Position numbers and translations under genes: made by a program. Shown in pieces: positions 49,745-52,792 of a stretch of 64,000 nt of DNA (position 1 is its first letter; the number at the start of each line of letters is the position of its first letter). The DNA lies in the NCBI RefSeq assembly GCF_012844345.1, contig NZ_CP051625.1, forward strand, positions 1,550,001-1,614,000, in the 5' to 3' direction. Source of the stretch: Pseudomonas sp. gcc21 (GTDB lineage Bacteria; Pseudomonadota; Gammaproteobacteria; Pseudomonadales; Pseudomonadaceae). The notes under the pieces are model-generated. The model saw only the letters and a program-made list of their open reading frames with translations, searched no databases and had not been told where the DNA came from.

Positions 49745-50923
49745 TCAGGCAGACAGCTCCTCCAGCGGGCCAAAGAACTCATAACGCTGGTTCTCCGCCG
49801 GCACACCCAATTCGTTCAGCAGCTTGCGACAGGTTTGCATGAACGGCTTGGGCCCGAGGAAATAAACATCCATATCCGGGTCGCTGGGCAGCATCTTGCT
49901 TAGCTTGTCGAGGTCAAAGAACCCCGTAGCGTGCGCCTGGTCATCCGGCAACGGATCGCTGTAGACATAGTGCACATTGAGGTTGTCGTGCTGCGCGGCC
50001 AGCGCATCTACATGATCGCGAAACGCATGATGGCGACTGTTCAGCGCGCCATGCAGGAAATGGACTTCCCGACCACTCTCGAGCGCCGGCTGCAGCATGC
50101 TGACTGCTGGCGTGATGCCGACCCCGCCCGTCAGCAGTACCAGCGGCCGTTTCTGCTGGTTGAGTACGAAGTCGCCGCTCGGTGCAGTCAGCCTGATGGT
50201 GTCGCCAACCTGTATGTGTTCGTGCAGATAGTTGGACACATGCCCGTCGGCTTCGCGCTTGACGCTGATACGGTAATGGCCAACACCGGGCCGATCAGAA
50301 AGTGAATAGTTACGACGCAGGCTTCGCCCGTTCACGTCCACGATCACACAGGTGAACTGCCCGGGGATGAATTCCATCAGCGGGCCGTCATCCGTCGGAA
50401 CCAGGTAGAACGAAGTGATGACTTCACTTTCCTTCTCCTTGCGCTCAACGGTGAAGCTGCGTTCACCACGCCAGCCCCCGGCCTTGTGCTCGTTCTGCTG
50501 ATAGCGCTGCTCTTCGGCAACTATGAAAATCTCTGCCAACTGTCCATAGGCTTCACCCCAGGCCTGCAAGACTTCATCGGTGGCAGCTTCGCCCAGAACT
50601 TCCTTGATTGCGGCCAATAGACACTCGCCGACGATAGGATAGTGGTCCGGCTGGATATTCAGCGATACGTGCTTTTGCACGATCAGCGATACCGCATCGC
50701 CAAGTGCTTCCAGACGGTCGAGGTTGGCTGCGTAAGCGACTACGGCATTGGCCAGTGCCTGGGGCTGAGTGCCCTGACGCTGGTGCGCTTCATTGAAATA
50801 GTCCTTGACCGACGGGTAACGCTCGAACATGAGCGGATAAAAGACCGATGTGATGGTACTGGCGTGCTCCTGCACCGCCGGGAGGGTGGCTGCGATGATG
50901 TCTTTACTGTGTTGTGACAGCAT
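49745..50923 (-). CDS. hmp: Flavohemoprotein Hmp (nitric oxide dioxygenase)
   Basis: Converts NO and O2 to nitrate using NAD(P)H. The 392-residue protein has a globin domain (1-~140) with B10 Tyr29, proximal His85 and Tyr95. A ferredoxin-reductase-like FAD domain follows (RRNYSLSDRPG, with the RxYS motif), then an NAD domain (LVLLTGGVGITPAVSMLQPAL ... FLGPKPFMQTCRKLLNELGV, ending EFFGPLEELSA). It is divergent from norR; the region between holds a sigma-54 promoter, a NorR-type site and an 84-base tandem duplication. Confidence 0.97.
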   Translation of the reverse strand: MLSQHSKDIIAATLPAVQEHASTITSVFYPLMFERYPSVKDYFNEAHQRQGTQPQALANAVVAYAANLDRLEALGDAVSLIVQKHVSLNIQPDHYPIVGECLLAAIKEVLGEAATDEVLQAWGEAYGQLAEIFIVAEEQRYQQNEHKAGGWRGERSFTVERKEKESEVITSFYLVPTDDGPLMEFIPGQFTCVIVDVNGRSLRRNYSLSDRPGVGHYRISVKREADGHVSNYLHEHIQVGDTIRLTAPSGDFVLNQQKRPLVLLTGGVGITPAVSMLQPALESGREVHFLHGALNSRHHAFRDHVDALAAQHDNLNVHYVYSDPLPDDQAHATGFFDLDKLSKMLPSDPDMDVYFLGPKPFMQTCRKLLNELGVPAENQRYEFFGPLEELSA

Positions 50924-50949
50924 GGTCTCTCTCTAGGCTGATTAGTTGT

Positions 50950-51122
50950 AAGAGCGTTAGAGCCGTAGCGCTCGGCTTGTGCCGCTGACAGTCGGCCTGC
51001 CGACGCGGCAGCTGCTCAGGACTCTTGCGTCCAAAGAGCGTTAGAGCCGTAGCGCTCGGCTTGTGCCGCTGACAGTCGGCCTGCCGACGCGGCAGCTGCT
51101 CAGGACTCTTGCGTCCAAAGAG
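50950..51122. repeat. Exact 84-base tandem duplication in the hmp leader
   Basis: 50951-51034 and 51035-51118 are identical over all 84 bases, with partial extension on both sides (one base and four bases). Each unit contains the hairpins CTGCCG-ACG-CGGCAG and GGACTCTTGCGTCC, and can also form GCCG/CGGC pairs. The unit length is a multiple of three. Confidence 0.95.
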
Positions 51123-51131
51123 AAGGATGAA

Positions 51132-51147
51132 AGCACTTACCGTGCCA
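51132..51147 (-). promoter_or_regulatory. Sigma-54 promoter for hmp
   Basis: On the minus strand TGGCACGGTAAGTGCT matches the RpoN consensus, with GG and GC separated by ten bases. It is 209 bases from the hmp start codon. Transcription should begin near 51120, at the edge of the tandem repeat. Confidence 0.75.
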
Positions 51148-51184
51148 GCTAAAACCACGCAGATTTGCACGGCTCGCACGCCGT

Positions 51185-51201
51185 GTTGTCCATAGAACAA
51201 C
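51185..51201. promoter_or_regulatory. NorR/FhpR binding site
   Basis: GTTGTCCATAGAACAAC is a palindrome with the GT-N7-AC core known for NorR. It lies about 38 bases upstream of the hmp -24 element and 38 before the norR start codon, so it may serve hmp activation and norR autoregulation. A weaker GT-N7-AC match is at 51213-51223. Confidence 0.65.
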
Positions 51202-51238
51202 GCATCATCCAAGTTGAAAAGACTACGGGCGTGTCCTT

Positions 51239-52792
<1,554 letters not shown>

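Follow-up and report, generated by a model that had tools for sequence, protein, structure and literature searches.

An exact 84-bp tandem duplication makes up most of the predicted hmp leader of Pseudomonas sp. gcc21 and is probably a recent copying slip

Results and discussion

The DNA analysed here (the window) is a 64,000-nucleotide stretch of the Pseudomonas sp. gcc21 genome, in which an exact 84-bp tandem duplication lies between a sigma-54-like promoter and the hmp gene. We consider it likely that a single 84-bp leader segment was duplicated by slippage, recently and with near-neutral effect, in a clade where the hmp leader was already long, and that the event occurred in this lineage alone as far as the genomes compared show. 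The array is real, but has the appearance of a common copying error and not of a novel control element.

Structure and rarity of the array

Tandem Repeats Finder gave an array at 50950-51122 with a period of 84, 2.1 copies, 100% matches and no indels, and direct comparison gave an exact period-84 run of 173 bases at the same position (173 = 2 x 84 + 5), the agreement of the two confirming the exact duplication in the hmp leader claimed in the preliminary description. Read on the minus strand, on which all parts of the leader lie, the sequence shows a 5-bp partial third copy CTCTT (51118-51122), the short repeat which bounds the duplication in the 173-base run, followed by the promoter-proximal copy of the unit (51034-51117), the identical hmp-proximal copy (50950-51033), and an unduplicated leader tail with the purine-rich, Shine-Dalgarno-like AGAGAGAGACC (50924-50949). 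The array fills most of the hmp leader, with the sigma-54-like promoter directly upstream.

Chance can hardly account for an exact tandem of this length: in 464 kb of sequence, made up of the window and 20 stretches of 20 kb from the same genome, no other exact tandem had a unit between 20 and 1500 bp. Tandem Repeats Finder listed 10 imperfect ones in the same 464 kb, their units being 20-52 bp long. A three-copy tandem repeat of 52 bp, with 89% matches, is also found in this genome approximately 34 kb before the window (L076:15645-15800).

When the unit was compared with its own genome (a single 3,983,233-base contig with a listed completeness of 100%), there were 2 matches at E values up to 0.001, both being the array copies themselves, which gives no support to a REP-like dispersed repeat or mobile element as the source. 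In the other 36 same-genus genomes the unit had weak matches in two, of 46 and 31 bases (G006 and G033 respectively), neither of them at hmp. A plasmid origin was likewise dropped, the plasmid collection containing no match to the unit, as was a phage origin, with 0 viral contigs carrying an exact 26-base piece of it.

Promoter setting and predicted leader

The hmp gene (49745-50923, minus strand) encodes an NO-inducible flavohemoprotein of 392 aa (NF009805, 541.4 bits against a curated cut-off of 432), and is adjoined by a divergent norR ortholog (51239-52792, plus strand) encoding an NO-responsive sigma-54 activator of 517 aa (NF003451, 724.1 bits, curated cut-off 476), the two genes starting at 50923 and 51239, respectively. 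Between them lies a sigma-54-like -24/-12 promoter, TGGCACGGTAAGTGCT (51132-51147, minus strand), which was recognised from sequence only and has 1 mismatch to TGGCACNNNNNTTGCW. As matches with up to two mismatches are not commoner in the window than in shuffled sequence (33 versus a shuffle mean of 44.7), the assignment of this site rests on its context, namely its comparable place in relatives, the divergent norR gene and three GT-N7-AC motifs upstream. These putative NorR sites, all on the minus strand, are found at 51233-51243 (the first, overlapping the norR startcodon), 51213-51223 (the second) and 51188-51198 (the third, nearest to the promoter). All 10 same-genus NorR-type loci have three such sites, with the third located 51-54 bases from the promoter element, and this constancy indicates that it is mainly the length of the leader which has changed. 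Rodionov et al. 2005 (PMC1274295) describe the layout of NorR sites and sigma-54 promoter for NorR targets including Pseudomonas hmp, and also cite the control of fhp by FhpR in P. aeruginosa. The sigma-54 promoter proposed earlier for this locus, and its NorR setting, are therefore supported by the comparable place of the element in relatives, the three sites and the divergent norR gene, and hmp is probably under NorR/sigma-54 control here.

As a rule of thumb, sigma-54 transcripts start about 12 nt past the GC of the -12 element. Transcription is thus predicted to start near 51121, so that the array would be transcribed almost whole, as had been suggested, provided that the start site is where predicted. 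The resulting predicted leader is 198 nt long, of which 172 nt are repeat. The array is unlikely to encode a leader peptide: the 102-codon open reading frame over it (50904-51212), which gave no hit in Pfam, begins with a TTG lying before the point where transcription is predicted to start, and the doubled leader contains neither ATG nor GTG and only one TTG per unit, which leaves the divisibility of the unit length by three, pointed out in the preliminary description, with no evident coding meaning. Extra NorR sites within the unit were also discounted, as the one GT-N7-AC match per copy represents four fixed bases only and is missing from the leaders of both sister species, P. profundi and P. 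saliphila.

Leaders in same-genus relatives

We searched 37 same-genus genomes with Hmp, one genome per species, and found a full-length copy in 12 and the NorR/sigma-54 layout in 10. Two loci (L022 and L023) lack a sigma-54 element of the kind seen here in the vicinity of hmp and were excluded from the leader counts, and the second hmp copy of genome G007 was kept outside the comparison. In Pseudomonas sp. gcc21 the predicted leader measures 198 nt. Both P. profundi and P. saliphila have one of 114 nt, exactly the length that the 198-nt leader takes when one unit is removed, and the remaining 7 NorR-type loci have leaders of 25-38 nt. A tree of hmp and norR DNA separated the three long-leader species from these 7 at 100/100 support; it is unrooted, with the two most distant species among the 7, and it resolved the 10 species, which a protein tree did not. 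No comparable tandem was present in the other 9 same-genus NorR-type hmp loci, and the longest direct-repeat run in the other 38 of the 39 hmp upstream regions (300 bp each, periods of 8-149) was 14 bases.

The one-unit leader (50924-51037 in the window) and the leaders of P. profundi (L003, 2887-3000) and P. saliphila (L004, 1768-1881) are each 114 nt long, and are similar only over the last 30 nt. In alignment the one-unit leader has 59% and 55% identity to those of P. profundi and P. saliphila, respectively. Over the last 30 nt the tail is recognisably related to those of both sisters, as 0/1000 shuffles aligned as well to P. profundi and 5/1000 to P. saliphila. When the unit part was compared with the first 86 nt of the sister leaders, shuffles did as well in 919/1000 and 750/1000 cases, respectively. 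The first 86 nt of the two sister leaders are related to each other (0/1000 shuffles as good). With the P. profundi leader as query, a search of the gcc21 genome (G000), G017 and G021 returned the query's own locus and the ortholog in P. saliphila; no other match had an E value below 0.07, and the gcc21 genome gave none at E values up to 1. A single copy of the unit in each sister species is not supported by the shuffle test, in which only the last 30 nt proved related. From these comparisons the length, place and tail of the long leader can be taken as traits of the clade. The unit itself may plausibly go back to a leader present in the ancestor of the three species; turnover or replacement fits equally, and the common length of 114 nt could reflect coincidence or rapid turnover.

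Leaders in the wider family and the FNR/DNR-type box

In the wider family, hmp was found at E values up to 1e-100 in 106 of 148 genomes, and the leaders of the 27 best-scoring loci outside the genus (L042-L068) were read. A TGGCA-type element was present in 25 of these 27, giving leaders of 31-64 nt; one locus (L050) has two candidate elements, and the nearer one was counted. This loosely held length across the family fits a leader which tolerates changes. In a species of another genus (L046) a NorR-type promoter with GT-N7-AC sites was located 218 nt upstream of hmp. A further locus (L059) has a 115-codon open reading frame between the sigma-54-like site and hmp, which may accordingly be the second gene of an operon there.

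Within the genus, 6 of the 7 species with a short hmp leader (L015-L019 and L021) carry an FNR/DNR-type box in that leader (TTGAT-N4-ATCAA, with 9 or 10 of the 10 bases matching), at position -32 to -34 in five of these and at -26 in L021, while the leader of the seventh (L020) has no such box. The leaders of the three long-leader species contain no match of at least 8/10, and two of these species have 8-of-10 matches upstream of the promoter. The long hmp leader thus goes together with absence of a predicted FNR/DNR-type box. A search of the gcc21 genome found putative regulators with a cNMP-binding domain in 8 places.

Origin and age of the duplication

The exact match extends 5 bp beyond the unit, for which the probability of at least 5 by chance is approximately 0.005 when equal base frequencies are assumed, and consequently in a precursor with one unit the segment would have begun and ended with CTCTT. 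Short direct repeats at the ends of a duplication are a mark of slippage or illegitimate exchange, and we infer slippage as the probable cause, acting on an ancestor with a single copy of the unit. The two copies have 0/84 differences (at most 3.5% divergence at 95%), and hmp differs from its P. profundi ortholog at 58 of 115 fourfold sites, so the duplication should be young compared with the divergence of the species, barring exchange that homogenises the two copies. Of the two explanations offered originally for the identity of the copies, a recent event agrees with these figures, while strong constraint is unlikely, given that the unit is unrecognisable in the two nearest species.

The proposed sequence of events is as follows. 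A long hmp leader behind a conserved NorR/sigma-54 promoter is common to this species and its two nearest relatives, and in this genome slippage (or unequal exchange) between the two CTCTT repeats would have copied the segment once, lengthening the leader from 114 to 198 nt. In the present-day locus NorR would sense NO and activate the sigma-54 polymerase from the three upstream sites, giving an hmp transcript which includes both units and would be translated from the ribosome-binding site in the unduplicated tail, with little or no predicted change in initiation caused by the extra unit.

Folding of the leader and alternative explanations

The alternative with the most in its favour, although we still think it unlikely, is a structured RNA in the leader which regulates the translation of Hmp or the stability of the mRNA and which the second unit doubles or strengthens. 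Long hairpins are predicted in the sister leaders, which fold with z-scores of -1.60 and -2.64 (12/200 and 3/200 shuffles as good), and the doubled leader has a z-score of -2.69 when compared with plain shuffles (2/200 as good). However, the one-unit leader folds no better than many shuffles (z-score -0.60, 57/200 as good), and against duplicates of shuffled units, which are the fairer control, the doubled leader reaches a z-score of -1.6 only, with 22/300 as stable. In a consensus fold of the three sequences, 88.6% of the cells pair versus at most 45.7% when the alignment is slid, albeit that the fold was itself built on this alignment. It has 24 pairs with 3 double changes, a number also reached by 91/500 shuffles, and its covariation score was reached by 70/500 shuffles; with three sequences and an alignment of the unit part which is not better than chance, these two figures carry little weight either way. 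An Rfam search of 50700-51500 (801 bases) gave no hit over gathering score, the one match (E value 3.2) being outside the leader at 51337-51410, and there was no terminator-like site in 50700-51400.

Copy number also has hardly any predicted effect on access to the translation start. Opening the ribosome-binding and start region is predicted to cost 8.7 kcal/mol with one unit, 8.6 with two and 8.7 with three, and 7.6 kcal/mol when only the 30-nt tail is present. This region is predicted to be less open here than in the sister species (8.6 versus 5.0 and 4.5 kcal/mol), and according to this model the difference is not due to the duplication. The earlier suggestion of a structured RNA controlling Hmp translation hence finds no support in the one-unit fold, the duplicated shuffles or the constant opening energy, and the extra unit would be near-neutral in its effect. 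An effect on mRNA decay, through pairing between the two copies, is possible.

An exact 84-bp tandem can expand and contract by slippage, and the identity of the copies and their location in the leader of a stress gene would suit a phase-variable or dosage-tuning repeat, in which changes in unit number set the Hmp output of subpopulations. Such a repeat seems very improbable to us, as there are only two copies, the one genome of this species shows no second allele, the other 9 same-genus NorR-type loci lack a tandem, the array lies outside a promoter with a layout like that of relatives, and the predicted accessibility of the start is independent of copy number; phase variation or dosage tuning is thus possible but unsupported. 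We give equally little credence to a scenario starting from the clade-level pattern, in which the clade would have swapped a short leader with an FNR/DNR-type box for a fast-evolving leader of fixed 114-nt length, moving hmp from control by a redox factor to control by leader RNA, after which a doubling of the element in this species would have made Hmp levels under NO depend on unit number. Finally, an assembly artefact hiding a genome with one unit is the least probable explanation: one unit would match the leader length of the two sisters and the 173-bp array exceeds a typical short read, but the genome is a single contig listed as complete, the unit has no other copy which could drive a false expansion, and the usual assembly error is false collapse.

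Significance and comparison with known systems

By itself the array matters little, as one tidy instance of a regulatory leader with an exact and probably young duplication; should the number of units turn out to influence Hmp, the locus would provide a naturally occurring example of NO defence tuned by leader dosage. Among open-licence PMC papers we found nothing on a duplicated hmp leader. The clade-level change, in which leaders of equal length have unlike sequences and the FNR/DNR-type box is gone, poses a more testable regulatory question than the duplication.

The locus shares the divergent norR gene, the three GT-N7-AC sites and the sigma-54-like promoter with the NorR/sigma-54 hmp (fhp) promoter of Pseudomonas, as outlined by Rodionov et al. 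2005 (PMC1274295). It differs in having a predicted 198-nt leader with a tandem duplication, whereas the leaders of most relatives examined are 25-64 nt long. With contingency (phase-variable) repeats it has in common a tandem between promoter and startcodon, but here the unit is long and present in two copies, with no known alleles and no predicted effect on initiation. It also resembles short tandem duplications bounded by microhomology, of the kind generated by slippage, with which it shares the exact head-to-tail copies and the 5-bp end repeat and from which it does not evidently differ, the array here merely being situated in a regulatory leader.
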